DNA from: Lachnospiraceae bacterium | GTDB taxonomy: Bacteria > Bacillota > Clostridia > Lachnospirales > Lachnospiraceae | Assembly (NCBI GenBank): GCA_024403435.1 | Contig: JAKSRV010000008.1 | Location: 1 to 38,832 of the forward strand | Direction: 5' to 3' | DNA length: 38,832 nt | Shown here: one piece after another, positions 7,594 to 38,832 of the stretch | Position numbering within the stretch: position 1 is the stretch's first letter | How the letters are laid out: every line of letters starts with the position of its first letter | Program-made: the position numbers and the translations under genes | Notes under the pieces: generated by a model | Told to the model about the DNA's origin: nothing | Seen by the model: the letters and a program-made list of their open reading frames with translations, nothing else | Databases searched by the model: none

Positions 7594-7718
7594 GCTTTAA
7601 TGTAGCGGCAGCAGGAAAGACATCACAGTAAGGCACCGGGAAAGACATTAAAGTAAGACATCAGGATTGACATCATAGCATTACATCGGGAATGACAGCA
7701 AAGCATAGAAGCTTCTGA
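7594..7718. repeat. Degenerate 25-nt tandem repeat, about five units
   Basis: Units start near 7594, 7619, 7644, 7669 and 7694. The middle three begin GACAT and end in CGGGAAA, CAGGATT or CGGGAAT; the outer two are more diverged. There are no spacers between units, so this is a tandem repeat and not a CRISPR array. It lies between the terminator at 7589 and gltB and would be part of the gltB leader if transcription starts upstream. Confidence 0.6.
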
Positions 7719-20563: not shown

Positions 20564-20595
20564 TTGCTGTATACCTCGTGGAAGGGGAGATGCAA

Positions 20596-21420
20596 ATGAA
20601 AATTCTGGTCGTGGATGACGATATCTTGGCATCTGCTGCGCTTATAAAAGAATTGAAAGATATTATGTCGGACTCCGATTATGAGATATTTGAAGCAAAT
20701 TTGCCGAGTGTAGCTCTGGAGATAGCCGATAAATATATGCCGGAAATAGCGTTTTTGGATATCTCAATGCCGGAAATGAACGGAATTGAGCTCGCCGGGA
20801 AATTGAAAGATATACGTAATAACATCAATATCATTTTTGTGACTGCGCATGAAGAGTATGGGCTTGAGGCGATGAATCTTCATGCAAGCGGATATATTTT
20901 GAAGCCGTTTACTCGTGCGGATGTAAAAAATGAGCTCGATAATCTGAGATTTCCCGTGGTCCGGGAGAATGAAGGCTTAAGGGTAGTTACTTTTGGCAAT
21001 TTTGATGTGTATGCCGATGGAAAGCCGGTATATTTCTCGCGGAGCAAAGCAAAAGAGATGTTCGCATACCTTGTGGATCGTTCCGGTTGCAGTGTCAGTA
21101 AGCGTGAGTTGGCAAGTATTCTGTTTGAAGAGCAGGAATACTCGGATTCGGTTGCGGACTATACGGCAAAAATAGCGATTACATTAAGCAAAAGCCTAAA
21201 AGATTGTGGTTACGGTGATGTTTTGATTAAGAATTATAATTCTTACAGAATAGATACTTCTAAGATAATCTGTGACAGATATGCTCATGAAAAAACAAGG
21301 AGCAGTAACGCAACGAATGGCAGAGCTGGTGTGAAGTTTTGCGGAGAGTATATGACCCAGTATCCCTGGGCAGAGTATTCTTTGGGGCGGCTCCAAATGA
21401 AAGATGAAGATAAATATTGA
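20596..21420 (+). CDS. Response regulator with SARP-like DNA-binding domain
   Basis: This cytoplasmic transcription regulator has an N-terminal receiver domain (residues 1-118; acidic pocket VVDDD at 5-9, phospho-acceptor Asp55 in FLDISMPEMNG, and a conserved Lys in GYILKPF). A winged-helix region of the Trans_reg_C/SARP type (about 130-225) follows, beginning FGNFDVYADGKPVYFSRSKAKEM. The last 45 residues, with GEYMTQYPWAEYSLGRL, resemble the start of the BTAD helical region seen in this family. No histidine kinase is encoded nearby, so it is an orphan. I chose ATG 20596, which has AAGGGGAG 6 nt upstream; GTG 20578 and ATG 20590 are in frame but badly placed. Probably in one operon with the GH13 gene. 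Confidence 0.88.
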   Translation: MKILVVDDDILASAALIKELKDIMSDSDYEIFEANLPSVALEIADKYMPEIAFLDISMPEMNGIELAGKLKDIRNNINIIFVTAHEEYGLEAMNLHASGYILKPFTRADVKNELDNLRFPVVRENEGLRVVTFGNFDVYADGKPVYFSRSKAKEMFAYLVDRSGCSVSKRELASILFEEQEYSDSVADYTAKIAITLSKSLKDCGYGDVLIKNYNSYRIDTSKIICDRYAHEKTRSSNATNGRAGVKFCGEYMTQYPWAEYSLGRLQMKDEDKY

Positions 21421-21519: not shown

Positions 21520-21559
21520 GCGGATAAGACACTTTTTAAGGGCGTTTTGTCCGCTTTTT
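21520..21559 (+). terminator. Rho-independent terminator after the regulator gene
   Basis: A 10-bp stem (21520-21529 with 21545-21554, including G-T pairs) encloses a 15-nt loop and is followed by five T residues. It separates the amylase-regulator unit from the giant gene. The remaining 73 nt to the giant gene contain a TATGAT (21590-21595) that may be its -10 box, without a clear -35. Confidence 0.8.
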
Positions 21560-21619: not shown

Positions 21620-21624
21620 GGAGG
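21620..21624 (+). promoter_or_regulatory. Ribosome binding site of the giant gene
   Basis: GGAGG lies 8 nt before GTG 21633. It is the only strong site near the beginning of the open frame and decides the start, because the first codon is not ATG. Confidence 0.85.
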
Positions 21625-21632
21625 AAAGTAGA

Positions 21633-21764
21633 GTGAATAGTTTTAAGCAGTTTATAAAGAAAAATTGGAAGAGAACTGTGAGCAGTCTGATATTGACATC
21701 TCTGTTGGTGGGAACCGATGGAACGTCACTGATTACTCTGTCTGATTTTGAGAGAGTATTTGCG
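21633..21764 (+). other. Signal-peptide-like N-terminus of the giant protein
   Basis: Residues 1-44: basic region with several Lys/Arg between 5 and 14, hydrophobic core about 16-27, then a polar stretch ending VFA before DDE. The distance from core to VFA is long, so cleavage may occur earlier; export itself is well supported. Confidence 0.7.
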
Positions 21765-24700
21765 GATGATGAAGTATACGGTATCGAATACGTCGAGAAT
21801 GATACCTCTTATAATCTGGCAATTACTACTGGTAATAAAGACACAATTACTACCTCTATAGAATACGGTACTAAATTTGTGAACGGTGAAAATATCAAAA
21901 TTACACCTGAACAAGGGATGGGTATAGTTGTTTATTTGTCTGCTGATGAGGAAATACCTCGCGATAGCAATGGTGATATTACCGGTTGGGAGGAAGTAGA
22001 TAATAATATTTTGCCTGTAGGAAACTATTTTCTTGCATACGAAGAGGCAGGAGCTGATGGCGGAGAATATTCAAACTCATATCTCGGATTCGGAATAAGT
22101 GTTCATCAGGCTACGGTAGCGGCACCGACGGAAGTAATATTGGCTCCGGACGGAAGCGTAACATGGAAACAGGTAAATACCACAACAACCGGCCTTGAAC
22201 TGCAGGGAAATGAGGTGACTTATACAGTGACTCTGTATAAGGATAACGCTGCAGTTGCGGATTCGACGTATAGCACTACCGGTCTTGGCTACAATTATTC
22301 ATCATTTATCACCGGTAATGCATATGGTGTATATCAGGTTTATGTGTCTGCTATGGTCACAGATTCTGACAAGTCAGGTTATTATATACCTTCTGCGTCA
22401 GGTAAATCCAACACATCCGATTATTCTGATGTGATTGAACCCAATGTAACAGACCTGTCAGTAGCCGGAGAAAACGGTAGCAGATATTTGACAGCGACTG
22501 CAACCGATAACGGTACGGGTATAGCTGCTTACGCATTCGGCCCTTCTTCAACAACGGCTGACGGCTATGATTCTTTAAGTTGGAACACCGTATCCGCCGA
22601 GGATAGAGTTGTTGGCAAGGCAGTGACTGTAAGCAGCATTGGTCAGGATGATTTTCAGTCTTCCGGAGAGTATTCGGTATTTTTTAAGGATAATAGTGGA
22701 AATGTTGCAAGGTACGGTGCTGTAAATGTAACCGGACTTGTAATGCACAATTACAACCGAACAGTAGAAACCACCGGAACTGAGGAAAGAATATATTTAT
22801 TGGGAGATGATGATTCAATCAATCTGAATAATATCAATCCCGACGGTAGAGGATATGTTCTTGAAGGATGGTATGCAGAAGCAGGTTTTTTAAATAAGTA
22901 TAATACATATTTATTATCAGATCATACGGATAGGATTGCACAGGATGTTGATATATACGGTAAATGGGTAAAGCAGGTACTCAGCTTTTCAACACAGCCT
23001 GCAAATGTGAATATCACCTATGGCGGAGATGCTGACGGCAATAATAAGGTTGCAGTCCTCAATGCTGAGCTGGATGCATCGATACATGGCACAAAGACAT
23101 ATCAGTGGTATTTTAAGGCTGCAGATAGCAATGAGTTCGTTACAGTTACAGGTGCACAGAGCACTACGCTTAATCTTGATCAGGTAAGTCAGAGCGGTGA
23201 GTATTATATTGTTGCCACAGTAGATATCGGTGATGGTTCTCCGGAAATTGTTGAATCAGATCATGCAAATGTTGTAATCGGGGCAAGAACTCTCAGGATA
23301 AAAATACATAATGAGACATGTGACTATGGTCAGAACTACGAAGGCGAATTTGTATTTGAGGAGGCAACCGAGGCTGAGAGTGCCGGCGAGGGTATTGTGA
23401 GTGGAGATACTCTCTCTTCTGTTGTTAACAGCGGTTCAGGAAAAATTGCCTGTGATTATGTGGCAGGCAATCCCGCAGGAGATTATACAATATACTTCCT
23501 GACCGGTGCAGAAGGTTCGGAGAGTCGGGTAGATATTCCTTACTCCGAAATCAGCGCAGACAATTATTCGGTAGTATTGGTCGGAAACGGAACTCTTAAG
23601 GTTGCGCGAGCTGATCTTTCCGAAGCAGCGACGGTTGTTTTGAATGACGGCGATTCATATACATATTCGGGATTGGAAATCACTCCGAATGTTACAGTTA
23701 CTTACAAAGGCACAGAACTTACAAAGGACGTAGATTATACGGTCACTTATGACAGAAACGTCAATGCCACTACGGTTGAAAAAGCTCAGGTGACAATAAG
23801 TTATATTGGCAATTTTAAGGGAAGCAAGACTGTCGAATTCGATATTGTTAAGTCCGGATTTGTTACAGATGTTGTGATGAACAAGACTGAATGGCTCTAC
23901 GGAGACGAGTATGCTACCATTACACCCGCGGATAATAAAGGAAACGGTGAGGTTACATGGTATTACAAGTCCAGAGTTGATGGTGTGGATTTTTCGACCG
24001 ATGGTGCCACCACAACAAGACCTGTTAATGCCGGTAAATACTGGGTGTACGGCGTCATATCGGCTACTGCCAATTATGGGGAGATTGTGACCAATCCCAA
24101 GGCGTTTACAATTAATAAAAGAACCATTATCTTGACTTCACCGACTCAAAAATGGTCATACGATGCGAATATTCACACGGCGGCGACTTATACACAGAGT
24201 GGTGACGGTTTTGTGGGATCGGACGGATTCCAGTCGGTATCCGTATCGGGTTCTATTACTGATATCGGCAATGCGGTAAATACAATTGATTATGCACTTA
24301 CAAAGACTACTCAGGGTAAGAGTAACAACTATGAAATTGTGCTAAAGCCGGGAACTCTTACCGTAACGCCTACCAAGCTTGATAATCCTGCAAGCTTTGC
24401 ATGGAACAATACATATAAAGGCAGAGTAAGCTGGATTGCTGTAAGCAGAAATAACCTTAGTGTAGAGTATGAGATTAAGCTTTACAGAAAGGATTCGCAA
24501 GGAGAAGTATCAAGGGTAAAAACGGTCACAACAACCGAAACCTATGTGGATTTTCTGGACGATATTCTGAATGACTCAAAAGAGACTCAGTATGCCTACG
24601 CGGCAACTATTACGGTTAAGCCTGTATACAGTGCAGGTGAAAAAGAGAATTACGTTGAGAGTAATGAATCACCAAAGACTTCATGGAGAGCTACGGCCAG

Positions 24701-27700
24701 AATTAATGTATATCCTGATGAATTCGGTAGACTTATCGAGATTTGTAAAAATGATGAGACTAACGGTATTAAGGTTGAAGCTCCGAGCGATGCAAGCCTT
24801 TCATATGTAATATTTGTCGGTCAGGAATTTAAATTTGATGCAAAAGCCGATACGGGATATGCTGCGATGGGCTGGGTATACTATCAGAACAGCCTGGAGA
24901 ATAGTTACTTCTCTGAGCGTTTCTATAATCATTCATACTGGGTGGGTTCTGACGTTACAAAAACATACGTATTGGAACTTAAGGATACAGCTACCGATCC
25001 GTTCACGGTAAATATCAAAATGCTGAGCCATGACAGAGTTCCGAATATTGATTCCTTCACAGCGAGCAACAAGACCGGTGAGGATATAAAGAACGGTGTC
25101 AGTGTAAGCTTTGAATTAAGTGATTCGGTTGGACTTAAGTCTTACGCGATTGTAGAGGTTGGAAGAGCGCCCTATGATTCAGAGTGGAAGCCTATAACCG
25201 GAACCCCTATAAATTATGTAGGTGAAGATACTATCGACAAGCCCGGTACATATACAATATGGGTAAAGGATACAGCCGATAACACGGAACATGTTTTCTG
25301 GAATGAGGAGGATACCAAACAGGCTAATCCTTATATAACGGTATACGAGACACAGTTCTATTATGGAACGGCAATCGTTGGTGACACGACAGAAGATGTT
25401 GCAGCCGATGAAACCGGTAATACTATGGCAAGTGTTTATCACTTAAAGGGTACATCCATAAATCTTCCGGAATTGGGATTTGTCAAGTCGGGATATGCGT
25501 TTACAAACTGGAGCGGAGTGGATGCTAAGACCGGAGTTTCAACCGGTATTTATGGTGATGGCCAGAAGCTTAATACCAATGCAAATGAGAAACTGTATGC
25601 TCAGTGGACCGACAAGAGTTTTTCATATAATGTTGAATATTATTATATGCAGACGGATGGAAAGTATTCGTCTGTTTGTGATGCCACTCAGTCTTTCAGA
25701 GCAGGATATAATGCGACAATAAGTGTACAAAACGCTGTCATTCAAAATGTACAGAATGGATTCAAGCTGGATAGCTCAAAGTATTATTCGGAAGAGGATA
25801 TTACCGAGGAGGTGTCGGAAGAAGAGCTTCTTGCACAGAACAAGATTAGGGACAGTATCACTGTTACTGAAGACGGTCAGACTATAAAGCTTTATTATGC
25901 AAGAAATCAGTATATTATAACCTACACGTATACTGACACGGATAACACTAAGAAAACAGATTACGCGACCTACAGATATGGACAGAGTGTAACTGTTAAA
26001 TCTATGGAATCCAAGAAGGGCTATGATTTTGTTGGTTGGGATTTTGGAGACCTGGGTCAGGCGCCTGTTACCATGCCTGCCAAGAATCTTGTATTTACAG
26101 GAAAATATCAGCCCAAGGCGTCTGAGTACAAGATTGTTTACTATTTACAGAATATAGATAAAGGAAACGCGGATAAATATTATCTTGCGGATATATATTC
26201 CATTGATGATACTCTCACAGAGACAATTATTGCAAATCACATGGATGCTATCACTGCTACTGTGGCAGATGCGCCTGAACTTGTTGGATTTACATGTGTT
26301 GGCGTCAATGCAAAAAATGGAAGCGCAAGCGGAATATTGAAAGAGGGAAGTGGCTCATCAATCACCGGTAATGTGTATTACCATGATGAAAACGAAGAGA
26401 ATGATGAGACGTTATATATATGCTATTACTACGATCGTAACGTATATACCGCAACACTCAATGTCTATGTAGACGGTAGAGAAGGAAGTCGGATTTATAC
26501 CAAAAATTGGAAATATCCTTATCAGTATGATTTTTCTGATGTAGAAAAGGAAGCGTTCAAGACTTACGGATACTCCGATGATGATGGACAGAATGAGTGG
26601 ATTAAGAACTGGCCTTCAGGAAAGCAGCTTGACGCGTACAAGCTCGCAAGCTATGTTGATTATTCTACAAGCGCAGATGGTTCTGCACCTTCGCTCATGC
26701 CTGCAGGTGATATGACCGTTACCCGCGAATATATTATCGCAGCTCAGGCAGCTTACAGGGTAGAAGTATACTATGAGCAAAAATTGGTTGAAATAAAAGA
26801 TGCTTATGGCAGAACCAATTATTCGTTACCGAATCATTCTGAAAACAGAACCGATCAGTTCGAAAAACTTGCGTCATTTGATTACTACGGTCCTATCGGA
26901 GAAACTGTAAAGATCGGAGAAACCGTTAACACTGATGGTGTAACTATATCATATAAGTATGATGATAATCCCGGCGACGGTGTGGATAACAGTTACAACG
27001 GAATACCTATTTATACTGCGTATAAGCTTGGCGATTATTATGAGTACTCAGGCTATTATAATAAGATGCCGGTGTTCGATGAAAACGGTGTAGTCACTAA
27101 CGGCGGCTTTATCAATGCGGCTTCGGAAGGTGTGATAAGTGATACCTCCGAAGGTGAAGAAATGCTCGTTCTCAAGGTGTACTATGAGCGCAAGACTACC
27201 ACTGCGGAAATCAGATATTACTATGCAGATGAGACTATGAGCGGCAATGATGTCTTCAACTGTGAAACCGTTACCGGTAAATGGGGAACTTCTTATGTTG
27301 TAGAACCTTTTAAGTATTATACAAACAAGGTTAAGAGCAAGAGCACTGACGATGATACATATAATAACGGATGTTATATTGTTTCATATGAAAACAGATA
27401 TAATTCTACTCCGTCAAGCGGCTATTCTTACGATTCCGGCAGATATGAACAGGAAGCAAGTGATACCAAATATAATATCAAGAATGCAACTGTAAAATTT
27501 ACCGAGGGAGAAGACGTATATAATACGCAGGTTCGCCGTTTTGGCGCTACCATTGAGTCTCCTGCCAAATACAGCGAAAAAAGCTCATACAGCTCATATA
27601 ACTTCGGAAGTTATACATATGTTTATTACACAGCAGCCGACAGAACTAAGCAGTATTATTTGAATGTATGCTATCGAGATTCTGCTAATAATGACAGTAA

Positions 27701-30700
27701 CAATATTTCCATTACAAAGACTATAGGAGATACTGAATACAAAATCAGAATTGCCAATAAGTCAATGATATTTAACTATACAATGACCAGCGGCGATAAC
27801 AGCAACCAAATGTATAAGGGTGCTGTCAATTTTGGTGCAAACATACAATACGAATATGGGGAAATAAAAGAAGGTTATGAGCCTGTTGAAGTAAAGCTTA
27901 TGAAGCTTCAGAACAAAGCTGACGGTACTTATGAGATTGTTGAAGACACACGAACAGATACATATTATCTTCGTGATGATTACCTGTATATTATCGATGA
28001 TAGCAATCAGCTGTTCAGAGGTAACTATGTAAACTACACCTATAACGGAAGTGCATCCAACAGTACCAATCATAGGACGGAATATGAGCCGGGATTCATT
28101 ATTGTGTCAAAGTATTTGGAAGATCATCCCGGATGGTATATCAATAATCGCAGCTGGAACAAAAGATTTTACAATACGAAGGATGGTGTTGGCGGCGGTG
28201 ATTTGATAGTAAATTTCTATTATAATCCCACATATTATACTGTCACATATAACTTCAGATATGACAGTGATTCTGACTATAACAAGTCAGTAAACTGGTA
28301 TAAAGAAGGTACAACTAATATAGAAGTTACTACAAGTCGTTTTGCTACGGCAAACGGATATGAAGTAGTGTGGTATACAGATGAAAGCTTTGAGACCAAG
28401 GCTCCGAATAGCATTGAAAAAATTGTAAAAAACCACGTGTTCTACGGACGAATGGAGAAAGTGCCTCTCGAGGGACATGATTATATTTCTTATGAGTACG
28501 TAAGCGAAATCAGTGGAATCGATTCGGCTTGGATGACTGCTGATAAATTATCGACATGCGATTGGACGGATATTTCTGAGTCTGAAGGAGCGGAATTACA
28601 GACTGCTCTCAGCGCTAATAAATATGCCAAGAGACAGATAGTTGTAAAGACAAAGATAACTGATGCGTATGGAAGAGAAGTAGTATTCGATACGCCCAAG
28701 ACAGAATACTATTACAACGGAACTCTGGTACTGATTGATCAGGTTCATTACAACTATTCATACTCTGATGTAAGCCTGGATGTTTTGCAGTACGCACGAA
28801 TAGGATTTAAGTACGACCAGGCCAATACCGGTAACAAGTCGCTTGCTTATTGTACTTCTGAAGGCGTGGCTATGTATGCGTTCTTTGCAAGAGAGAAGTA
28901 TACTCTTGTCATTGATCAGAATAAGAATGAATTGACAAATAATGAAGTATCATCACATCTGTTCAATGTATCGATCTCGATAGGCAAAATTACTCAGGAC
29001 GGATATATATTTGATGGTTGGGAGTACTATGCGCTCAATGATGACGGAAGCCGCGGAGATCAGTTAACTTCTGAATATATGCAGGAAGTAAATTATCGTT
29101 CTGCAACCAAGATTGCAATGCCGGATTGTGATGTTATCGCTGTGGCTAAATGGATTACCACAGAGTATTCAAACTACGTGACTTATTTCTACGAGCTCAG
29201 TGATAAAACCTACGATTCTGCAAGACTTGGCTTAGTATTGGAGGATGGGGTATATGCAAAAACTATATCGCTTGCTTCGGAACAGGCGGTATCTGAAGTA
29301 ACTGCATATTATACCAACTCAAGCGAGAGTGAGCTTATTGCAGTTTCGTACGATGTTGATGTAAATGGAGAGAAATATACATATTATTTCTCAAAACTTA
29401 CATCGGAGAGCAGTGGATATGTCCTTGATCAGAGCAATCTTTTTGCGATGGTCAGGGAGGTATCTTTTGAGTCTGAAAAGAACTACAAATATTTAGATTA
29501 CAAGACAGACAATACACAGATTTTCTCATATTCATTTGTAACGTACAGCTGCACCGATAAGGATAGAAATGAGATAAACGTAACTAAGAAAGAATTGTCT
29601 GATACAGACAGCTTTGAAGCATATTACAACATGAATCTTACTTATTACTACACGAGAAGCAGTAATAAGCAGATTCGTGCTGTTGCGATGTCATCAGACG
29701 GCGGAGATGCCGGTACCACCATTACCGGAACAGGTAACTGTTATTATGGACAGGAGATTACGCTGCATGCTTCTGTAGACACAGGATATACCTTTGTTGG
29801 ATGGTATGCGGCTGAAGATGTGCTGGTATACCATGAAGGCGATGTGACCAAGAAATATGCAGATACTGTTGGAGATGGAGACGAGATTCCTTTATTCTCG
29901 CTTGCAGGTTATGTGCTTAAGGACGATTGGGAGTCGGAAACTGCTATTTCGACAGAAACTTCGATTCAGGTGACAGTTACTAAGTCGTGTGATTATGTTG
30001 CAGTTATCAGACCTGTTTCTGTAATCATACCTGTAGTAACAACATCGGGAAAGAAAGACTATGTATACGGTTACGAGGAGAGCTCGGATAACCAGGTAAA
30101 GGTATCGGTAAATTGGCCGGAAGGAGCGGGCTCAAATTACGTCAAGGGATATAGATGGTATTACAAGTATTATGAGGTTGGAGCGGTTATTCCTGATGAT
30201 GAGGCGATAGCAGAACTTTCGCTTGATGAATTTACTGCACTCGATGAAGCCGGCAGTGCGATACACATGATTCCCGTAGGAAAGGATGCCGGTACATATA
30301 TCTACAGATGTGTAGTAGATATTGGGCGTAAGGATAACGGACGTGATATCTATGTAGACGGCAATATTCCGGTAAACGTTGCTCCCAAGAAAGATATTCT
30401 TGCTACCAGAGATACAGAGATAGACTACAACGGCAACTCTTACAGAATAGTGAAAGAGTATACCAATACTCATGATTTGGGATCGTACAATACATCGGAA
30501 ATCTATGTTACCGAGAGCATGCTGGAAGCATATGATGCTGAATACAAAACCGGTTGGCAGGAAAAAGTACTTAAGGCATACATGGCAATCCCTGCCCTCA
30601 CGGATACCAATAAAGTTGAGGTTGCGGCAAAAAAGAGCGAGTATCAGACGGTTATCGAAGAGTTCTTTGCTGAATTAAGCAACCGAGATGATAAAGAAAC

Positions 30701-33700
30701 TTATTATACAGCGGAAGCTCCTTCATTTGCTGATGTACGCATGTATGAGTTCAAAGACGATAAGGGAGAAATCATTGACAGAAGGGTAATTCCCAATATT
30801 GTTCTTTGGCAGGCAAGTACAACCAATAAGAACTATCAGCCCACACAGTGTGGCGCTGTAGGAGTTAAGTTCAATCCTGTATATGTGACGATTACTCCCA
30901 CCTCCAAGCACTTTGTCAAGGTGTATGATGGTGTCGCTCAGATTCAGGGATCTGTAGACGATCTTGATTCTGACTACGCAAGACTGACCAATCCCGCAAA
31001 CGGATATTATAGCGTGGATGGTATTGTTGAAGCCGATAAGTCACTTCAGCTTTGGTTGAGCACCGATGCAAGTTTTAACACCAGACATGTAAATGCGGTT
31101 GAGTTGGTAATGGCGGACATATGGCTTGGTAAGGTTGAAGATAATGAGTTCCGTTACAACTATAACTATATTTTCCCTTCCGGAACTACTATCAAGACAT
31201 CGGGACAGATTACTCCTTATCCGCTTGATATTACATGGGATGAATCAAAGACACACTTTACCTACGATGGTGTAACTGCATGGGGACCCGAGATTATAAA
31301 GAAATATTTAGGCGAGTCGGGACTGCCATCTGATGTCGACAGAATAGAGATTAATGTTGAGAACAAGCAGGTTAATGCAGGAACCTATAACGCTGTGGCG
31401 ACTGTTGTTCAGCCAAGCGGAAGTGAGGGCGATGCAGGATATTATTATGCTAATGACTACAGCTTCTCTATAGCTACCTGCGAATATACGGTAACCAGCA
31501 GATATCTCGAGGTTAAGCCTGTTGCAACCAGTGTTGTTTATAATGGACAGCAGCAGACAATTATAGAATTTGAGTTCCTTACCAAGGAAAATGAAGGGGA
31601 TGAATGGAGCTCTGATATATTCAGTCTTCCGGGAGAGCAGACATTCTCTGCTTCAGCAGATTCATCATATACAGAGGTGGGTGACTACCTGATTACTGCG
31701 CAGAATCTGATTGTGCTTCTCAATGGTAAGGACATCAACGATAACTATATTATTACCTACGGATCGGATTACCTTCATATTGTTCCATGCCCTGTTGTCG
31801 TAACGGGAGTTACTGTCAAGGACAAAAAGTATGATGGATCCGTATCGGCAGAAGTATATACAGATACAAACGGTAATGCGGTAAATCATAATGATGAGGA
31901 CGCGTACGTTACATTTGCGGCCTTGTCGGGAGTGAAGTATGTGGCTACTTCGGTAGACGAAGACGGTCATATCACAGCCGGTTACTACGATTACTCAGAG
32001 GCTGTGCTTGAATCCGGACTTTGCGCAGAGTCTGATATTCTTTATCTTGTCGCTAACGGAATAACTGCAGCATTTGAAAACGCAGCAGTGGGTGATAACA
32101 AGAATGTAGCTCTTACATATACCAATAGCGGTACAAATGCTAACGGAAGTGCAGGAATCATAACCGGAGGAGCTAAGGATTCCTATATTCTCATTACTGA
32201 AAAGATAACCGGCAAAAATTCTGTTGGCATAGACAGTGTAAAGACGGCTACGGCTTCTATTTTGGCATCAGGACTTACCGTTACTGTAGAGGATGTAAGT
32301 GCTGTATACGGAGAGACCCCGGATTATTCATATACTGTCAAAGGATATGAAACGGGAGACAGCTCATCAAATGTCACTATTACCGGTGAACCTGTATATA
32401 TCATCAAGAAGGTTGTTGATGATAAAGACGAAAGCGGAAACGTAACCGGCAGCCATGAAGTGGTGGTATTTGATGATGGCAAAACAATCGGAGCAGGTAA
32501 TCCTCTTGATGTCGGTACATACAAGATTTATGTAAAAACTGCGACCGGTAATATAGTTGATGGTATTACTACCGGAAACTATGACATTGAATGGGATACA
32601 CAGGTTGCAACACTTACTATTACGCCCAGACCTGTCACTATAAAGGAAACAGAGGTTGTCGTAAGAAGAGATTACGATGGAACCGTATCTGTTGATTCCA
32701 CAATTGCACCGGAAAAGAATAAACATTATGTATTTAGCGATGTAGAGAATGATGCAGAGTCCGGTGTCCTTGCGGTAGACAATGACACGCTGGATCTTGA
32801 GTCGTTTACAAGCGTTTATGACTACAAGGATGCTACTATATATGATGAATCCGGCAATTATGTATCGGGTGCAAATATAGTAACGATGTCTGACTTGGTA
32901 CTTAATAGCACCAACTATACGCTTGTTAATTCCGTACTTAATGTGAAGGGTGAGATTACGCCCAAAGCTATCAGTGTTAAGGCAAGCGATAAAGCTATCA
33001 CTTACGGAGATGCTGCGCCCACATATACTGTAGAGCTTGCAGGTGGTTCTGAGACAGTAAAGGGCGAAGAAGCTGCTGTGCTTGCACCCGGTAATTACAC
33101 CTTTACATGCGATTACGATACAGAGGAAGAAGGAAAAAGAGGTGCAGGTACCTATACTATAAAGGTATCAGCATGTAAAAACACCAACTATTCAGTGACC
33201 TATATAGACGGTGAGCTCACAGTTAATAAGAAACGAATTGCGATTACTCCGAATCCGCAGGAGACTAATTACGGTGTTAAGAATGCAGGAGAATGGAATA
33301 CATATCTTGCAACATTCGGAGGAAAATTCGGCGATGGCTGGATGTATGGAGAGTCTGCCGCTACTGCAGGAATTAAATACAATACTGATGGAAGTGGTAA
33401 TGTAGTTGCTGCAAATGCCGGTGGAACAATTAACGATTTTTCAGCGGAAGAACCGGTAGCAGGAAATCCAATTACCTACAAAGTAGTGGATGATAACGAT
33501 AATCCTGTTACCGCAACCAGTCCCGTAGCAGATTATAAGATTAAGGCTGAACATGTAGCCGAGCTTGATGAAGAAGGAAATATTGTCACAGCTTATCTTT
33601 ATTCTGCTAACTATGAATTTATTCCGACAGATGGAACATTTAAGGTGACTTATCATTATATTACCATTGATGGAGTCAAGGTACTTGGTAAGAAATATGA

Positions 33701-36700
33701 TGGTAACTGTTCTGTGGCAGAGGATCATATAATCAAGAAAAACATTACTTATACTTATTGGGAATTGGGTAAAAAGCATACAGAAAAAGTAAATGAAGAG
33801 TCCCAGTTCATAAATTCTCTGATTATAAAATGCAGATACGAGAACAAAAACGTCGGAAGTTCCAAGAAGGTATTTGTAAACATTACTCTTGATCCGGACA
33901 GTTATCTTGGACAGAGATACATATTACTCACCAAGGATAATAAAGCTGAGGCGAGTGAGAATGCTGGAATTCCCGTAGATGCTAAAGTAACACAAACTGA
34001 AGCATTGGCATATATAGTTAAGGATGGTGAAGAGACATATAATGATGCTCTTTCCAAAAGAGATATTTATCTGGCGCCTTCAAATGTCACCATCAAGTAC
34101 GGTGAAGATGTAACAGTTGTTGCAGATAATAATGTGTTGACGTCGGAGCAGGCCTATGCAGCAATGGAGTCAAATGCATGTACCTCATATGTATATACGA
34201 CAAATGATACCAGCTTTGGATGGGATTATGATGAGTCCGATAATAAGATATATGAGAATTATTCAAGTATAGGATTTATTCTCGAATCAAAGATATATCT
34301 TACAACTGATTCATCTATTGTATATGAAGTCGGATCTGATGTCGGAAGTTATACAATTAGTATTTTCTCTTCCACATATGACGACGCAGGAGAGACATAT
34401 AAGGACGGACTCAATTATCAGGTTGGACGTGATATAGGAATTTTGACAGTAGTTCAGAATAAGTTAGCAACACCGACTCCTTCATGGGATAGCAGCAGTG
34501 CTGGTACGGTAAGCTGGAATTCTGTACCTAAGATTGGAAAAGTACATGTACAGAAATATGTTGTGAAGCTGTATAAGGATGGCAATCTTGTTTGCTCAAA
34601 AGAAATTGAGATTAATACCGATGGAAGACTGAATAGTGCAGATTCTCATGCTACAGTTAGCGGTGATGAATATGGCAGCTACGTATATAAGTACGATATG
34701 CTGGATGAGATTCATGGAAGTGGTGAAGGTAACTATACCGCTACGGTAACGGCTATTGCTGCTACAGATAGAGAGATCAATGACGGTAATAAGAATGTGG
34801 CTGATTCGGATGCGGGTATTACTCAGGAAAACGGTGTGACCGCTTCGATTGCTGCTGCCAAGGTTACCCTCGTATTCTCGACTGAAACCAATACGAAAGC
34901 AGCTACAATCGGATCCGGTTCGTATTTTAACTTTACCGGAAAGAGTAGCAACACTTACACCGTTGTTGCAGGTGAGAGTGGCGTCCCGATTGATGCTTCG
35001 TGGGTGAATGCAAACGGATTCAGCACCGGTTATAGTATCGGTTCTGTCATAGTGACCGGTGACGGTTATTCGGTTGATAATGGACAGGGCGGAACTATTA
35101 CTAAAAAAGCTCTTAGTATCTCAGGGGTATCGGACGATTCCGCTAACGGTAAATACAGTGCGAAGATAGGACTTAGCAGTGATATTACATCCAATATGAA
35201 TATTACTGTTACTATGACCCTTGAGCCGAGAAAAGCTACCTTGAAGGCAACAATTGCCGGAACAACGACAGGTAATAATGCATATGCGCAATATCAGCAG
35301 AGTGATATTGCAAAGACAAAATACGGTTATAGTGACAGCTCTACTCTTGAGTACGAGATTACCTGTGTGCCTGAAGATGATAATGTTGGTTCAGGCAAAT
35401 ATACCTATACTTATACATGGTATACATATCTTCAGGGCAACTCGAAAAATAAAGCCCAGGTAGCAGAGACATCAAATGTATGTAAAATACCTGAAGGAAT
35501 TAAGGTATCAAATAACAAATATTATATTGAGTGTGAAGTTGTCGCTACCAGAAAAGACAATGGCGAGCAGACAAAAAAGACAATCAATAAGCCATTTATG
35601 ATTGAGAAGTACATTCCTTCCAATACAGATGCCCGTGTTGATGTGACCGGTTGGAATTACGGCGCAGCAAGAAGTTATTATACAGATACTCAAGATAAGG
35701 GTATTAGTTACTACAGATATAGTGATGAAATGGCATTCAGCGATTATGTACTTATCTGGAGTACAACAAATAATGTGGTGACAGGTGAAGGAGACAGCAA
35801 GGATAAGCTTATAGAAGGTAAGGAGTGGAGTGTAGAAGCACCTAAAAATGTGGGTACATACTATGTTCAGGTATATTATAAAGGAAATGCCAACATAGCT
35901 CCTTTTTACTCACAAGTTACGAGTTTTGATATAAAGAAAAATAAGCTTGCGACTCCCGGTGATTTGAAGTTTACTTCTTCTTCGACCACTCCGTACGGAA
36001 GACTTGATTGGAGCGATGTCACTGAAGGAACAGTGAACGCTTCACTGACAGAAAACAATAATCTTGATGGCAACAACGACAAGATTGGAGTGACTTATCA
36101 GGTTAAGCTTTATAAAAAAGTAAATAATGGTGATGCGTATGCGTTGGTTGATACAGGAAGCAACTATGATGCTCTTACGGACAGTAGCTGTGACATGTCT
36201 TCTTACATAAGCGGTAAGGGCTATTACAAGTTTGAAGTGATAGCAAAGAGCAGTAATACCGACAACTGTGAAGACAGTGCTGTAGCTCAATCCGGAGAGA
36301 TTATCGTTGATGCCGACGTTACTGTGACGGGACATACCGAATCAAAAGATGATCAGTATACCAAAGTATATGATGGAGGGGCTATAACTCTCTCAATCCC
36401 GGATGGAGTAGATTCATATCAGTGGTATAGAAACGGTGAGGCAGTTACCGGCGCGAATAAACATTCTATTGACATCAAGTATGTTGAGCAGAACGGAATA
36501 TATGTTTGCACATATACCAAGGGCGGAAATACTTTCAATTCTCATCATGTTGAAGTAAAGATTTTACCCAGAGAGATTACGATCGTATCTGCTTATGACA
36601 GTAAAAACTATGATGGAACCGCTCTTGTTAACAATAAGTGGTGGATACAGGGGCAGGATGCTGCAGGTACTGTATATGCAACCGGTTCCGGAACATTTAC

Positions 36701-38832
36701 CGATAATATTGTTGGTGGTGGAAGCACAAGTAATACTGTCAGTGGAGTAAATGTTATCGGCAACGCCAATGTGAATGTTACTTCAGTAGTAGGACTTGAT
36801 AATGCTTTAGATATATCCGGTGTTGTTATTAAAGAGGGTGATAAGGTCGTATATAATGCGGCAATGAAGGCTGATAATACAGCTAACTATGTATTGAGTA
36901 AATCAGAGGGTAAGCTTGTAATCAGTAAACGTGCGATTAATGACGATAAGTCCGGCGAAGCGTATATTTTCGATGTAAGCGGAATTACTGATAGAACCTA
37001 CGATGGTGCAGCGCAGATTCAGGAAGAACTGAGTGTTGTAGACACATTTCTTAAGAAGACATTGGTTGCCTACAATGGCAAGACCGGTGCCGACAGTAAT
37101 GCTTCTATCTGTGATTACGAGGTTACTTACAGTCAAAATGTATATGCAGGAACAGCAAAGATTACCATTACAGGTCTGAATAATTATAATGGTGAGATTA
37201 CAAGAGAGTTTGAGATAAATCCTCGGGCGATTGAACTTACAGCAGATTCAGACAGTAAGACATATGATGGTAATGTACTTACCAAGAATGGTTACTCAAT
37301 CTCATCCGGTGAACTGGCAACCAAGAGTAATGATGTAATCAAGAGTATAGAAATAGTTGGTACTATTACCGATCAGGGTACCACAGATAATACTATTACC
37401 GAGGGCTCTGTTAAGATTGAGAATAAAGACGGGGTAGATGTTACTTCTTCATATACTATCAGTCTTAAGAAAGGAAGTTTGAGAATTGATCCTGCAGACA
37501 TAACCATTACTGTAGGGGATAAATCATGTCCATATAATGGTGGTGCGGTAGAGTATGCAGCAGCTGATGTTACAGTAAAGAATAATGGTTCAAATACAAC
37601 CATTACAAATCCCGGTCTTTCTTATACATATTATGAGAAGAGTGGCGATGGCTGGACAGAGCTTACAGGGGCACCGGTGAATGCCGGTGAATACAAGGTA
37701 AAGGTAAATGTAACCGCGGCGACAAATTACAAGGCCGGAAGTAAGGAACAGACCTTTACGATTGCCAAGAAGCATATTGTACTTAACTGGAATAATGGTA
37801 CATATGTGTATGACAATACCGATAAGTCTGTAACGGCAGAAATCGATTCAAGCAGTATTGTTACCAAGGCAGGAAGTGATGCTCCCGATGATGTAAAGAT
37901 TTCTACCTATCAGACAAAAGGTAAAGCATATACTGCCGGAGATGATGCAGATACTGCTACCGGAACCGTATATTTGGTGACAGGAGCTGTTGCGATCGGC
38001 AATATTGCGCGTAATGCCGGAAAATATGTGACTATCGTTACCGGAATAACCGGAGCCGATGCAGATAACTACTGCATAGCTGATGATAGCAACAATTCTT
38101 GTGATTGGGGAATCGGACGTGCTGACAGAAGCATCACTGTAGAAGGAATTACAGAAGTATATAACGGTAGTAAGCACGTTGTAAGTGCAGCGACTACAAC
38201 CAATCTCGACAACTCTGCTGTAATAGTGATTACATACGCAGGAAAGAGTGGAGCATCTACTACAGAAGTGGAAGGAATGAATGTTCCTGTAAATGTTGGA
38301 GAGTATGATGCGACTGTAAGTATTGCGCAGACTACCAACTATAAAGCTGCCAATGAGACGGTAACAGTCAAGGTGACTGAGAAGGCAATCACTGAAGCCA
38401 ACAACAGCTTTGTGATAACAGGTATTGAAGATTATAAATATGATGGTACCGAAAAAACACAGAGTAATTTGAAGGTGACAGACGGTGCCCTGAATACAAC
38501 GCTTGTACTCGGAACTGATTATGAGATTGAGTATGTTAACAATGTCAATGCTTCTGAGAACGGGGCTAAAGTTATCATCAAGGGTATTGGTAATTACAAC
38601 GGAAGTGTAGAAAAAACATTCTCTATATCAAAGAGAAACGTAACACTTACGTCTGCTACAGACAGCAAGATGTATGACGGAACCGCACTCACTAATGAAA
38701 ATGTAACTGTCGGAGGAGATGGATTTGTAAGTGGTGAGGGAGTGACCTACAGCTTTACCGGAACGCAGACAGATGCAGGAAGCAGTGATAATGAATTCAC
38801 TTATACATTGATGGCCGGAACCAAGGCGGATA
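21633..38832 (+). CDS. Giant secreted repeat protein (InlB-type, Fn3/Ig-like and MBG/YDG modules), 3'-truncated by the window
   Basis: One frame stays open from GTG 21633 to the last base: 5,733 complete codons and no stop, so the protein is larger than about 600 kDa. It begins with a basic stretch and a hydrophobic core (KKNWKRTVSSLILTSLLVG), a signal-peptide-like start with possible cleavage after Ala44. The rest seems to be extracellular beta-rich modules: Fn3-like (four), Ig-like (two), InlB/Listeria-Bacteroides-type repeats (about 25.4-30 kb) and MBG/YDG repeats (30.9 kb to the end). It is rich in Tyr, Thr, Ser, Asp and Asn and poor in Cys. No catalytic domain is recognisable. Family knowledge suggests a surface adhesin or stalk attached by a C-terminal sortase or other anchor, which is not in the window. 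The strict function is unknown. Confidence 0.93.
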   Translation, partial: MNSFKQFIKKNWKRTVSSLILTSLLVGTDGTSLITLSDFERVFADDEVYGIEYVENDTSYNLAITTGNKDTITTSIEYGTKFVNGENIKITPEQGMGIVVYLSADEEIPRDSNGDITGWEEVDNNILPVGNYFLAYEEAGADGGEYSNSYLGFGISVHQATVAAPTEVILAPDGSVTWKQVNTTTTGLELQGNEVTYTVTLYKDNAAVADSTYSTTGLGYNYSSFITGNAYGVYQVYVSAMVTDSDKSGYYIPSASGKSNTSDYSDVIEPNVTDLSVAGENGSRYLTATATDNGTGIAAYAFGPSSTTADGYDSLSWNTVSAEDRVVGKAVTVSSIGQDDFQSSGEYSVFFKDNSGNVARYGAVNVTGLVMHNYNRTVETTGTEERIYLLGDDDSINLNNINPDGRGYVLEGWYAEAGFLNKYNTYLLSDHTDRIAQDVDIYGKWVKQVLSFSTQPANVNITYGGDADGNNKVAVLNAELDASIHGTKTYQWYFKAADSNEFVTVTGAQSTTLNLDQVSQSGEYYIVATVDIGDGSPEIVESDHANVVIGARTLRIKIHNETCDYGQNYEGEFVFEEATEAESAGEGIVSGDTLSSVVNSGSGKIACDYVAGNPAGDYTIYFLTGAEGSESRVDIPYSEISADNYSVVLVGNGTLKVARADLSEAATVVLNDGDSYTYSGLEITPNVTVTYKGTELTKDVDYTVTYDRNVNATTVEKAQVTISYIGNFKGSKTVEFDIVKSGFVTDVVMNKTEWLYGDEYATITPADNKGNGEVTWYYKSRVDGVDFSTDGATTTRPVNAGKYWVYGVISATANYGEIVTNPKAFTINKRTIILTSPTQKWSYDANIHTAATYTQSGDGFVGSDGFQSVSVSGSITDIGNAVNTIDYALTKTTQGKSNNYEIVLKPGTLTVTPTKLDNPASFAWNNTYKGRVSWIAVSRNNLSVEYEIKLYRKDSQGEVSRVKTVTTTETYVDFLDDILNDSKETQYAYAATITVKPVYSAGEKENYVESNESPKTSWRATARINVYPDEFGRLIEICKNDETNGIKVEAPSDASLSYVIFVGQEFKFDAKADTGYAAMGWVYYQNSLENSYFSERFYNHSYWVGSDVTKTYVLELKDTATDPFTVNIKMLSHDRVPNIDSFTASNKTGEDIKNGVSVSFELSDSVGLKSYAIVEVGRAPYDSEWKPITGTPINYVGEDTIDKPGTYTIWVKDTADNTEHVFWNEEDTKQANPYITVYETQFYYGTAIVGDTTEDVAADETGNTMASVYHLKGTSINLPELGFVKSGYAFTNWSGVDAKTGVSTGIYGDGQKLNTNANEKLYAQWTDKSFSYNVEYYYMQTDGKYSSVCDATQSFRAGYNATISVQNAVIQNVQNGFKLDSSKYYSEEDITEEVSEEELLAQNKIRDSITVTEDGQTIKLYYARNQYIITYTYTDTDNTKKTDYATYRYGQSVTVKSMESKKGYDFVGWDFGDLGQAPVTMPAKNLVFTGKYQPKASEYKIVYYLQNIDKGNADKYYLADIYSIDDTLTETIIANHMDAITATVADAPELVGFTCVGVNAKNGSASGILKEGSGSSITGNVYYHDENEENDETLYICYYYDRNVYTATLNVYVDGREGSRIYTKNWKYPYQYDFSDVEKEAFKTYGYSDDDGQNEWIKNWPSGKQLDAYKLASYVDYSTSADGSAPSLMPAGDMTVTREYIIAAQAAYRVEVYYEQKLVEIKDAYGRTNYSLPNHSENRTDQFEKLASFDYYGPIGETVKIGETVNTDGVTISYKYDDNPGDGVDNSYNGIPIYTAYKLGDYYEYSGYYNKMPVFDENGVVTNGGFINAASEGVISDTSEGEEMLVLKVYYERKTTTAEIRYYYADETMSGNDVFNCETVTGKWGTSYVVEPFKYYTNKVKSKSTDDDTYNNGCYIVSYENRYNSTPSSGYSYDSGRYEQEASDTKYNIKNATVKFTEGEDVYNTQVRRFGATIESPAKYSEKSSYSSYNFGSYTYVYYTAADRTKQYYLNVCYRDSANNDSNNISITKTIGDTEYKIRIANKSMIFNYTMTSGDNSNQMYKGAVNFGANIQYEYGEIKEGYEPVEVKLMKLQNKADGTYEIVEDTRTDTYYLRDDYLYIIDDSNQLFRGNYVNYTYNGSASNSTNHRTEYEPGFIIVSKYLEDHPGWYINNRSWNKRFYNTKDGVGGGDLIVNFYYNPTYYTVTYNFRYDSDSDYNKSVNWYKEGTTNIEVTTSRFATANGYEVVWYTDESFETKAPNSIEKIVKNHVFYGRMEKVPLEGHDYISYEYVSEISGIDSAWMTADKLSTCDWTDISESEGAELQTALSANKYAKRQIVVKTKITDAYGREVVFDTPKTEYYYNGTLVLIDQVHYNYSYSDVSLDVLQYARIGFKYDQANTGNKSLAYCTSEGVAMYAFFAREKYTLVIDQNKNELTNNEVSSHLFNVSISIGKITQDGYIFDGWEYYALNDDGSRGDQLTSEYMQEVNYRSATKIAMPDCDVIAVAKWITTEYSNYVTYFYELSDKTYDSARLGLVLEDGVYAKTISLASEQAVSEVTAYYTNSSESELIAVSYDVDVNGEKYTYYFSKLTSESSGYVLDQSNLFAMVREVSFESEKNYKYLDYKTDNTQIFSYSFVTYSCTDKDRNEINVTKKELSDTDSFEAYYNMNLTYYYTRSSNKQIRAVAMSSDGGDAGTTITGTGNCYYGQEITLHASVDTGYTFVGWYAAEDVLVYHEGDVTKKYADTVGDGDEIPLFSLAGYVLKDDWESETAISTETSIQVTVTKSCDYVAVIRPVSVIIPVVTTSGKKDYVYGYEESSDNQVKVSVNWPEGAGSNYVKGYRWYYKYYEVGAVIPDDEAIAELSLDEFTALDEAGSAIHMIPVGKDAGTYIYRCVVDIGRKDNGRDIYVDGNIPVNVAPKKDILATRDTEIDYNGNSYRIVKEYTNTHDLGSYNTSEIYVTESMLEAYDAEYKTGWQEKVLKAYMAIPALTDTNKVEVAAKKSEYQTVIEEFFAELSNRDDKETYYTAEAPSFADVRMYEFKDDKGEIIDRRVIPNIVLWQASTTNKNYQPTQCGAVGVKFNPVYVTITPTSKHFVKVYDGVAQIQGSVDDLDSDYARLTNPANGYYSVDGIVEADKSLQLWLSTDASFNTRHVNAVELVMADIWLGKVEDNEFRYNYNYIFPSGTTIKTSGQITPYPLDITWDESKTHFTYDGVTAWGPEIIKKYLGESGLPSDVDRIEINVENKQVNAGTYNAVATVVQPSGSEGDAGYYYANDYSFSIATCEYTVTSRYLEVKPVATSVVYNGQQQTIIEFEFLTKENEGDEWSSDIFSLPGEQTFSASADSSYTEVGDYLITAQNLIVLLNGKDINDNYIITYGSDYLHIVPCPVVVTGVTVKDKKYDGSVSAEVYTDTNGNAVNHNDEDAYVTFAALSGVKYVATSVDEDGHITAGYYDYSEAVLESGLCAESDILYLVANGITAAFENAAVGDNKNVALTYTNSGTNANGSAGIITGGAKDSYILITEKITGKNSVGIDSVKTATASILASGLTVTVEDVSAVYGETPDYSYTVKGYETGDSSSNVTITGEPVYIIKKVVDDKDESGNVTGSHEVVVFDDGKTIGAGNPLDVGTYKIYVKTATGNIVDGITTGNYDIEWDTQVATLTITPRPVTIKETEVVVRRDYDGTVSVDSTIAPEKNKHYVFSDVENDAESGVLAVDNDTLDLESFTSVYDYKDATIYDESGNYVSGANIVTMSDLVLNSTNYTLVNSVLNVKGEITPKAISVKASDKAITYGDAAPTYTVELAGGSETVKGEEAAVLAPGNYTFTCDYDTEEEGKRGAGTYTIKVSACKNTNYSVTYIDGELTVNKKRIAITPNPQETNYGVKNAGEWNTYLATFGGKFGDGWMYGESAATAGIKYNTDGSGNVVAANAGGTINDFSAEEPVAGNPITYKVVDDNDNPVTATSPVADYKIKAEHVAELDEEGNIVTAYLYSANYEFIPTDGTFKVTYHYITIDGVKVLGKKYDGNCSVAEDHIIKKNITYTYWELGKKHTEKVNEESQFINSLIIKCRYENKNVGSSKKVFVNITLDPDSYLGQRYILLTKDNKAEASENAGIPVDAKVTQTEALAYIVKDGEETYNDALSKRDIYLAPSNVTIKYGEDVTVVADNNVLTSEQAYAAMESNACTSYVYTTNDTSFGWDYDESDNKIYENYSSIGFILESKIYLTTDSSIVYEVGSDVGSYTISIFSSTYDDAGETYKDGLNYQVGRDIGILTVVQNKLATPTPSWDSSSAGTVSWNSVPKIGKVHVQKYVVKLYKDGNLVCSKEIEINTDGRLNSADSHATVSGDEYGSYVYKYDMLDEIHGSGEGNYTATVTAIAATDREINDGNKNVADSDAGITQENGVTASIAAAKVTLVFSTETNTKAATIGSGSYFNFTGKSSNTYTVVAGESGVPIDASWVNANGFSTGYSIGSVIVTGDGYSVDNGQGGTITKKALSISGVSDDSANGKYSAKIGLSSDITSNMNITVTMTLEPRKATLKATIAGTTTGNNAYAQYQQSDIAKTKYGYSDSSTLEYEITCVPEDDNVGSGKYTYTYTWYTYLQGNSKNKAQVAETSNVCKIPEGIKVSNNKYYIECEVVATRKDNGEQTKKTINKPFMIEKYIPSNTDARVDVTGWNYGAARSYYTDTQDKGISYYRYSDEMAFSDYVLIWSTTNNVVTGEGDSKDKLIEGKEWSVEAPKNVGTYYVQVYYKGNANIAPFYSQVTSFDIKKNKLATPGDLKFTSSSTTPYGRLDWSDVTEGTVNASLTENNNLDGNNDKIGVTYQVKLYKKVNNGDAYALVDTGSNYDALTDSSCDMSSYISGKGYYKFEVIAKSSNTDNCEDSAVAQSGEIIVDADVTVTGHTESKDDQYTKVYDGGAITLSIPDGVDSYQWYRNGEAVTGANKHSIDIKYVEQNGIYVCTYTKGGNTFNSHHVEVKILPREITIVSAYDSKNYDGTALVNNKWWIQGQDAAGTVYATGSGTFTDNIVGGGSTSNTVSGVNVIGNANVNVTSVVGLDNALDISGVVIKEGDKVVYNAAMKADNTANYVLSKSEGKLVISKRAINDDKSGEAYIFDVSGITDRTYDGAAQIQEELSVVDTFLKKTLVAYNGKTGADSNASICDYEVTYSQNVYAGTAKITITGLNNYNGEITREFEINPRAIELTADSDSKTYDGNVLTKNGYSISSGELATKSNDVIKSIEIVGTITDQGTTDNTITEGSVKIENKDGVDVTSSYTISLKKGSLRIDPADITITVGDKSCPYNGGAVEYAAADVTVKNNGSNTTITNPGLSYTYYEKSGDGWTELTGAPVNAGEYKVKVNVTAATNYKAGSKEQTFTIAKKHIVLNWNNGTYVYDNTDKSVTAEIDSSSIVTKAGSDAPDDVKISTYQTKGKAYTAGDDADTATGTVYLVTGAVAIGNIARNAGKYVTIVTGITGADADNYCIADDSNNSCDWGIGRADRSITVEGITEVYNGSKHVVSAATTTNLDNSAVIVITYAGKSGASTTEVEGMNVPVNVGEYDATVSIAQTTNYKAANETVTVKVTEKAITEANNSFVITGIEDYKYDGTEKTQSNLKVTDGALNTTLVLGTDYEIEYVNNVNASENGAKVIIKGIGNYNGSVEKTFSISKRNVTLTSATDSKMYDGTALTNENVTVGGDGFVSGEGVTYSFTGTQTDAGSSDNEFTYTLMAGTKAD
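22118..22440 (+). repeat. Fn3-like module, copy 1
   Basis: Residues about 163-269, with the core PTEVILAPDGSVTWKQV and YTVTLYKDNAAV. It shares the pattern Pro - hydrophobic - G.V.W..V - Y.V.LYK with the copies at 24372, 34458 and 35940. Confidence 0.55.
22977..23280 (+). repeat. Ig-like module, copy 1
   Basis: Residues about 449-549. The sequence TYQWYFKAAD and, later, SGEYYIVATVD are the two usual strands of bacterial Ig-like domains, without the disulfide cysteines. A second copy (YQWYRNGEAV ... GIYVCTY) lies at about 36330-36570. Confidence 0.55.
23604..23850 (+). repeat. DYTVTY/GN(Y/F)xG beta module, copy 1
   Basis: Residues about 658-739. Pattern: YSGLEITPNVTV, DVDYTVTYDRN, then a strand ISYIGNFKGSKTVEFDI. 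The same pattern returns at about 36972-37230 (CDYEVTYSQN, ITGLNNYNGEITREFEI) and 38403-38634 (TDYEIEYVNN, IKGIGNYNGSVEKTFSI). Confidence 0.6.
24372..24690 (+). repeat. Fn3-like module, copy 2
   Basis: Begins TKLDNPASFAWNN and continues GRVSWIAV and YEIKLYRKDSQGE, matching the other three copies in pattern, not in DNA sequence. Confidence 0.5.
25365..29990 (+). repeat. InlB/Listeria-Bacteroides-type repeat region of the giant protein
   Basis: About 1,540 residues carry loosely repeated units of the type Y.V.YYYQ..DG... followed by GY.F.GW. Clear instances are GYAFTNWSG, SYNVEYYYMQTDGKY, GYDFVGWDFG, MPAKNLVFTGKYQ, YKIVYYLQNIDKGN, GYIFDGWEYY, MPDCDVIAVAKW and GYTFVGWYAAED. The units are much diverged and often carry insertions. 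Aromatic, mainly Tyr-Tyr-Tyr, strands recur throughout. In Listeria InlB such repeats bind host surface molecules; here the ligand is unknown. Confidence 0.65.
34458..34860 (+). repeat. Fn3-like module, copy 3
   Basis: Begins NKLATPTPSWDSSSAG and continues TVSWNSV and KYVVKLYKDGNLV. It interrupts the MBG/YDG array. Confidence 0.55.
35940..36315 (+). repeat. Fn3-like module, copy 4
   Basis: Begins NKLATPGDLKF and continues GRLDWSDV and YQVKLYKKVNNGD. The shared NKLATP start with copy 3 suggests recent common descent of these two. It is followed by the second Ig-like unit. Confidence 0.55.
36330..36570 (+). repeat. Ig-like module, copy 2
   Basis: Contains KVYDGGAITLSI, DSYQWYRNGEAVTGA and NGIYVCTYTKGG. 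It joins a YDG start with an Ig-like core, so module borders here are uncertain. Confidence 0.5.

Follow-up and report, generated by a model that had tools for sequence, protein, structure and literature searches.

A giant gene in a Lachnospiraceae bacterium is one of a rare, collinear family and probably encodes an exported tether or adhesin

The window analysed here (the whole stretch of DNA, exactly 38,832 bases, which is one entire contig) carries a giant open reading frame that we confirmed to be one real gene (Table 1). Its family is real, rare and of a known kind and, as far as the literature searched reaches, undescribed. Its product is probably exported and anchored at the cell envelope, where a role as a very long tether, stalk or adhesin is the best reading.

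Most of what the earlier note had claimed about the frame held up. It has no in-frame stop between its GTG start and the window's last complete codon (21633–38831), a clear GGAGG site precedes the start, and YDG codons stay in one register from residue 3098 (30924) to residue 5681 (38673). The mechanically called ORF is slightly longer (5,738 aa) and begins at a TTG (21618) that overlaps the ribosome-binding site. The remaining frames are broken everywhere, as also claimed: stops are present in all five in each of twelve 1.5 kb blocks, and the six ORFs of ≥ 100 aa listed inside the region all lie on the minus strand, the longest of them being 119 aa. At the gene's own base composition, 5,733 open codons would arise by chance with a probability of about 10^-178, and a random open frame is excluded as the origin of the gene. 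Every 24-mer of the coding strand is unique, making collapse or misassembly driven by repeats unlikely inside this stretch; the description 'repeat protein' is apt for diverged domain repeats but not for repeats in the DNA. That the gene continues past the window, another claim of the note, agrees with everything visible up to the contig end at 38,832, where the assembly cuts off the 3' end. The source assembly is 2.3 Mb in 168 contigs and about 81% complete; a search for a continuation of the gene with aa 4468–5733 found no match on its other contigs.

Table 1. Features of the giant gene and its upstream region in the window.
Feature	Residues (aa)	Position	Strand	Remarks
Response regulator		20578..21420	+	Response_reg receiver domain; directly upstream of the giant gene
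Terminator-like hairpin		21540..21552	+	Between regulator and giant gene; one found against a shuffle mean of 0.1
Ribosome-binding site GGAGG		21620..21624	+	8 bases 5' of GTG 21633 (sequence)
Giant gene		21633..38832	+	GTG start, 5,733 codons; contig end cuts the 3' side
Possible signal peptide	1–44	21633..21764	+	KKNWKR...VFA/DD, by eye
InlB B-repeat/MucBP-like beta-grasp domain	~1424–1496	25902..26120	+	
Middle block	~1860–2340	27210..28652	+	No strong internal match; no Pfam match over cut-off
InlB B-repeat domain	2690–2729	29700..29819	+	Pfam Flg_new (E 3.5e-9), strongest over aa 2688–2730
YDG-like domain	3388–3506	31794..32150	+	Family-iterated profile, begun from a Pfam YDG stretch of G011
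MBG_2 domain (PF18676)	3780–3863	32970..33221	+	Pfam 43.8 bits, cut-off 25
YDG-like domain	4010–4098	33660..33926	+	Same G011-seeded iterated profile
FnIII-fold domain	~4771–4894	35943..36314	+	
Ig_2-like domain	4926–4975	36408..36557	+	Pfam Ig_2 19.6 bits, under cut-off 27

The giant ORF has ten relatives (G103, G011, G253, G679, G157, G129, G189, G895, L042 and L043) and one fragment (G173, 2,247 aa, of the G157 type, which begins inside the gene) in other assemblies, and for that reason is not an artefact; five of the relatives are complete (4,669–6,940 aa). Their collinearity supports the view that this is one gene and not a chain of genes. BLASTP joined aa 101–5217 to residues 206–5259 of L042 in a single segment (27.6% identity, 1,218 bits; the best off-diagonal match reached 58.9 bits) and aa 266–5119 to G679 in another (27.2%, 1,098 bits), the unbroken segments covering 5,117 and 4,854 residues, respectively. 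Long ordered pieces also align with G103, G011, G253, G189 and G157, while G895 was assigned to the family by multiple alignment and profile only; one order over thousands of residues was thus found in the family. In the 11-row multiple alignment, identity to the window is 27–30% in every row (aa 101–5100) and 14 to 40% per 250-residue block; beyond aa 5250 it is 15–30%, and there the number of modules differs among relatives. The order of a ~5,100-residue array is therefore largely kept across eight labelled genera at ~27–30% identity and, as judged from these alignments, it is the order of the whole array that is conserved, which is more than the possession of common domain types. G157 is an exception to this rule, being shorter and having later pieces that overlap out of step. 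Giant adhesins are usually regarded as arrays that vary in both the number and the order of their repeats, a picture with which the kept order contrasts.

The complete frames measure 6,892 aa (G103, Eubacterium oxidoreducens DSM 3217, a cultured type strain; contig NZ_FMXR01000004.1), 6,940 aa (G011), 4,669 aa (G157), 6,062 aa (G253) and 6,146 aa (G679), with starts set at the first possible codon and so perhaps too early; in G129, G189, G895, L042 and L043 the frame is cut by a contig end. At their C-termini the complete relatives fall into two types. A hydrophobicity scan found segments long enough for a membrane span in G157, G253 and G679, and none of membrane length in G103 and G011, so that three of the five end in membrane-like helices and two in FnIII/Big_2-like domains. 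The latter consist of FnIII and Big_2 stretches just under the Pfam cut-offs in G103, and of a Big_2 just under cut-off and an FnIII found by a profile seeded from G103 in G011. The LPXTG anchor, which the earlier note had proposed to look for, was absent from all five by simple motif search, the window's own end being missing. At the contig starts of G189:C7 (L059) and G895:C2 (L078), 3' parts of the gene hold nearly identical tandem modules at the contig end, which may explain why such genes are frequently cut. As the contig ends inside the gene in the window and in six of the 11 relatives and fragments, genes of this kind are easily missed in metagenome surveys. The full-length copy in a cultured anaerobe (DSM 3217) makes a surface role directly testable.

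Three Pfam families exceeded their cut-offs in the window: Flg_new (the InlB B-repeat, PF09479, 37.1 bits with a cut-off of 27), Flg_new_2 and MBG_2. The NCBIfam model TIGR02543 also passed (35.7, cut-off 20.95), while Ig_2 and DUF7852 fell under the Pfam cut-off. A Pfam check for MBG and YDG, suggested in the earlier note, thus bore out the first in the window itself and the second only in relatives: Pfam YDG (PF18657) is not listed for the window and is over cut-off in G103, G011, G157, G253 and G679, and a family-iterated YDG profile finds two such domains in the window. The relatives carry up to 13 MBG_2 stretches, plus YDG, MBG and weak FnIII and Big_2. The absence of an enzymatic domain, as the note had it, is supported both by the Pfam scans, in which no enzyme domain was over cut-off in the scanned sequence, and by the ends of complete relatives: neither the whole of G103 and G011 nor the scanned 3' parts of G157, G253 and G679 gave a toxin or enzyme domain over cut-off. 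No known ligand-binding domain was over cut-off either.

Sequence searches returned no solved relative, either for an alignment of the conserved part of the protein (A1) at E 0.1 or for aa 3068–5733 at E 0.5. Two predicted models were of low confidence overall (mean pLDDT 44.6 and 49.6), which leaves most of the chain structurally unproved, and fold searches used only model stretches with pLDDT of ~70–86. The first Foldseek match of aa 1330–2480 was the surface protein YwfG (E 8e-8, but with an rmsd of 14 Å over 310 columns). For the beta-grasp modules at aa 1330–1496, eukaryotic ubiquitin-like (USP7) chains rank beside bacterial ones, as expected since the beta-grasp fold is common. To assess internal relatedness, the window's protein was divided into 95 overlapping segments of 120 residues and their profiles were compared with each other (4,371 pairs): 75 were linked to another segment (probability ≥ 80 over ≥ 40 columns), in three groups. 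Of the 20 segments left unlinked, eight form one run, with starts from 1861 to 2281 and a best probability of 64.8; the others start at 1, 1021, 1561, 1681, 1741, 2521, 2581, 2701, 2941 and 4381–4501.

This run of eight marks the middle block, which we regard as a candidate for a specific function. Scanned on its own against Pfam, the block yielded nothing over cut-off; a match to TcpQ (15.5 bits, cut-off 27) was taken as chance. The block is covered by a low-confidence model only. It is present in all ten relatives at 21–27% identity over 381–425 aligned residues and is less conserved than the rest (27–30% over aa 101–5100), a difference that fits a diverging binding part but also a mere spacer.

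The family is rare, with counts that are lower bounds because only a few first-look candidates were scored per genome (often four in the search with aa 1–1333 and two in those with A1). With A1 and a limit of E 1e-30, matches were found in at least six of the 397 genomes from the taxonomic family (the window's own among them), in at least two of the 392 drawn from the order (the window's own and G679) and in at least two of the 391 drawn from the class (the window's own and G895), these draws being overlapping. Among 150 genomes from the same taxonomic family, 43 matched residues 1–1333 at E 0.001, mostly in short, domain-level stretches; besides the window's own genome, long matches occurred only in G103, G011 and G129. 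Within the genus, aa 1335–2934 matched seven of 31 genomes at E 0.001, own included; G157 matched at length, G173 is the fragment and the other four matches were short, so that among the other 30 genomes only G157 and G173 have relatives beyond short domain matches. A scan of a named collection, which is no census since it used only two short peptide patterns, gave nine loci, five of them with long matches; these include G011, G129 and G103, and L042 and L043 as additional members. A plasmid or phage origin was considered and rejected, as a search of 72,556 plasmid and 50,697 phage records with aa 660–1760 gave no match at E 1e-5.

Export of the giant protein is likely, as judged from the N-termini. 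The export signal described in the earlier note is plausible by eye, and an N-terminal hydrophobic segment was flagged by a hydrophobicity scan in seven of the ten proteins that have an N-terminus (the window counted among the ten), but the window's own N-terminus was not flagged. The response regulator directly upstream, whose C-terminal half resembles the winged-helix type by eye, is a candidate controller of the giant gene. A homologous regulator lies directly 5' of the giant gene in G679, of another genus (G679:C3, L064), where it carries an in-frame stop in that assembly and is preceded by a histidine-kinase-like gene (by eye). At the other seven loci with upstream sequence, the regulator is absent as an immediate neighbour, so that the suggested link comes from two of nine loci. 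The terminator-like hairpin between regulator and giant gene suggests that the latter is probably its own transcription unit; a sigma-70 consensus scan found no promoter 5' of it, with shuffles averaging 2.1.

The neighbourhoods of ten giant loci, 9 kb to either side and 152 ORFs in all, were compared. G157 and G173, which belong to one genus, have a set of neighbours in common, and the remaining cross-matches comprise one pair of ABC-type and one of ATPase-like genes (both named by eye) and response regulators; apart from that pair and such common gene types, no neighbour recurred across the ten loci. The nearest genus homologues of the regulator, at eight loci, have mixed neighbours. At L072 the next ORF after the homologue looks InlB-repeat-like by eye, and at L066 and L069 genus homologues stand beside a common gene whose product starts MNNTQIYPFERNRYYPKKRLSSADY. 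In G011 (G011:C153, L024/L025) the giant gene is flanked within ~12 kb by three further large ORFs of 1,358, 1,565 and 1,212 aa, and two of these resemble each other at the C-terminus.

Trees were built from 11 rows of the giant protein (first 3,400 residues) and eight rows of rpoB, which was found in nine of 12 genomes (missing from G000, G011 and G129); G743 was dropped, as its locus gave no ORF that passed the motif filter. End branches span 1.0–2.0 changes per site in the giant protein vs 0.10–0.29 in rpoB within the family, so the giant protein diverges fast. For the two G157-type copies, which come from one genus, dN/dS is 0.25 over 2,247 codons, which indicates purifying selection on this pair. 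G895, of another taxonomic family, lies far out in rpoB yet is nested within the rest of the family in trees of the giant protein (its group has support 93/97 with 11 rows, and 86/95 together with G103 with 6 rows, neither starred). This placement and the rarity of the family would fit horizontal transfer or many losses. Transfer is a hint only, given that in the giant tree no more than one of eight inner branches is starred, that long branches meet and that the letter make-up of G895 deviates.

What might such a protein do? If it is a tether or adhesin, as we think probable, it would be secreted as one polypeptide in which many small domains of the beta-sandwich and beta-grasp types follow each other in fixed order, with an expected complete length of ~5,900–7,000 aa. 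Its C-terminus would hold it at the cell envelope, the chain would reach outward in an extended shape, and it would bind cells, mucus or glycans, perhaps through the middle block and not through the repeat-like modules. The composition of the protein (0.6% Cys, 8.1% Tyr) was counted for this reading; against it was counted that the complete relatives end differently, two of them without a membrane helix. Among the possible targets, we found nothing that favours plant fibre over mucus or cells.

The same differing ends, together with a domain order fixed along ~5,100 residues and the want of a ligand-binding domain over cut-off, would also suit a structural protein of the envelope or biofilm matrix that coats or links sister cells and has no outside target. 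We consider this possible but unlikely, as a basic envelope part should be commoner than a protein with the rare and patchy distribution seen in the taxonomic family and among the other genomes of the genus. A contact-dependent weapon or catching device, in which a long shaft carries an active tip or hook (CdiA-type, or the Aureispira grappling hook), would account for the length and the beta-domain array, and the first Foldseek match of aa 4630–5733 is indeed GhpA of Aureispira (E 8.9e-10). However, with an rmsd of 77 Å over 816 columns that match joins only strings of Ig-like domains, the scanned parts of the relatives gave no toxin or enzyme domain over cut-off, and no neighbour recurred apart from those of the same-genus pair and common gene types; we hold it to be very improbable. 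Still further from belief is an artefact of assembly or annotation, in which several genes or copies were fused into a false frame. The cut contigs of the window and its relatives could be read that way, but collinear relatives already contradict it: independent assemblies, one of them an isolate genome, keep the same order and frame. The unrepeated 24-mers and the stops in all other frames speak against it as well. Within the preferred tether or adhesin reading, a more specific and rather doubtful proposal is that of a horizontally moving, single-gene nanoscale tether, in which the ~5,100-residue domain order would itself be under selection and act as a length ruler, the active part would sit mid-chain (~aa 1860–2340) and not at the tip, and the gene's own neighbouring regulator would switch it on in some hosts.

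The earlier note placed the protein among the largest in bacteria, which is too strong, and far larger bacterial proteins are known. More than 41,000 proteins in UniProtKB exceed 5,000 aa, the majority of them eukaryotic, and the major bacterial clusters are peptide and polyketide synthesis, followed by surface proteins of attachment or recognition (PMC11573180). For comparison, the largest protein of Clostridium phytofermentans is given as 2,457 aa (PMC4452783). Among the matches listed from open-licence papers, none describes the giant family itself. Giant surface proteins in a Gram-positive host are represented by Giant1–5 of Apilactobacillus kunkeei, extracellular or surface proteins of 3,000–8,000 aa, to which ours is alike in this respect (PMC12863079). 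Giant1–3 are described as alpha-helical rods with a beta-solenoid head, the genes being consecutive and the ends SH3b-like (PMC12863079), whereas the window has a lone gene with InlB, MBG, YDG-like and FnIII domains. Of the A. kunkeei features, no helical repeat appeared in our two poor models, outside which the N-terminal 1,300 residues lie, and no DUF5776 in the Pfam scans.

InlB/YwfG/MUB-type proteins are much shorter, and some have a known binding head. The fold match at aa 1330–1496 relates the window to such InlB B-repeat and MucBP/Mub-type modules (Listeria InlB, YwfG, Lactobacillus reuteri MUB), although they make up only a small part of the giant chain. MBG and YDG proteins (PF18676, PF18657) are alike in that MBG_2 passes in the window and YDG in relatives, but these are domain families that do not describe the architecture seen here. 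GhpA, whose host Aureispira belongs to another phylum, is likewise a giant chain with strings of Ig-like domains (structure titles number its residues up to 5009), and resembles the window only at the level of the domain string.

The window as a whole gave no tRNA and no Rfam family at gathering score. About four imperfect 25-base direct repeats lie in non-coding DNA before a glutamate synthase gene (7607–7706; no Rfam match), and 14127–16226 encodes a 699-aa protein that, at the limits applied, matched nothing in Pfam or NCBIfam and has, by eye, many membrane-spanning stretches.
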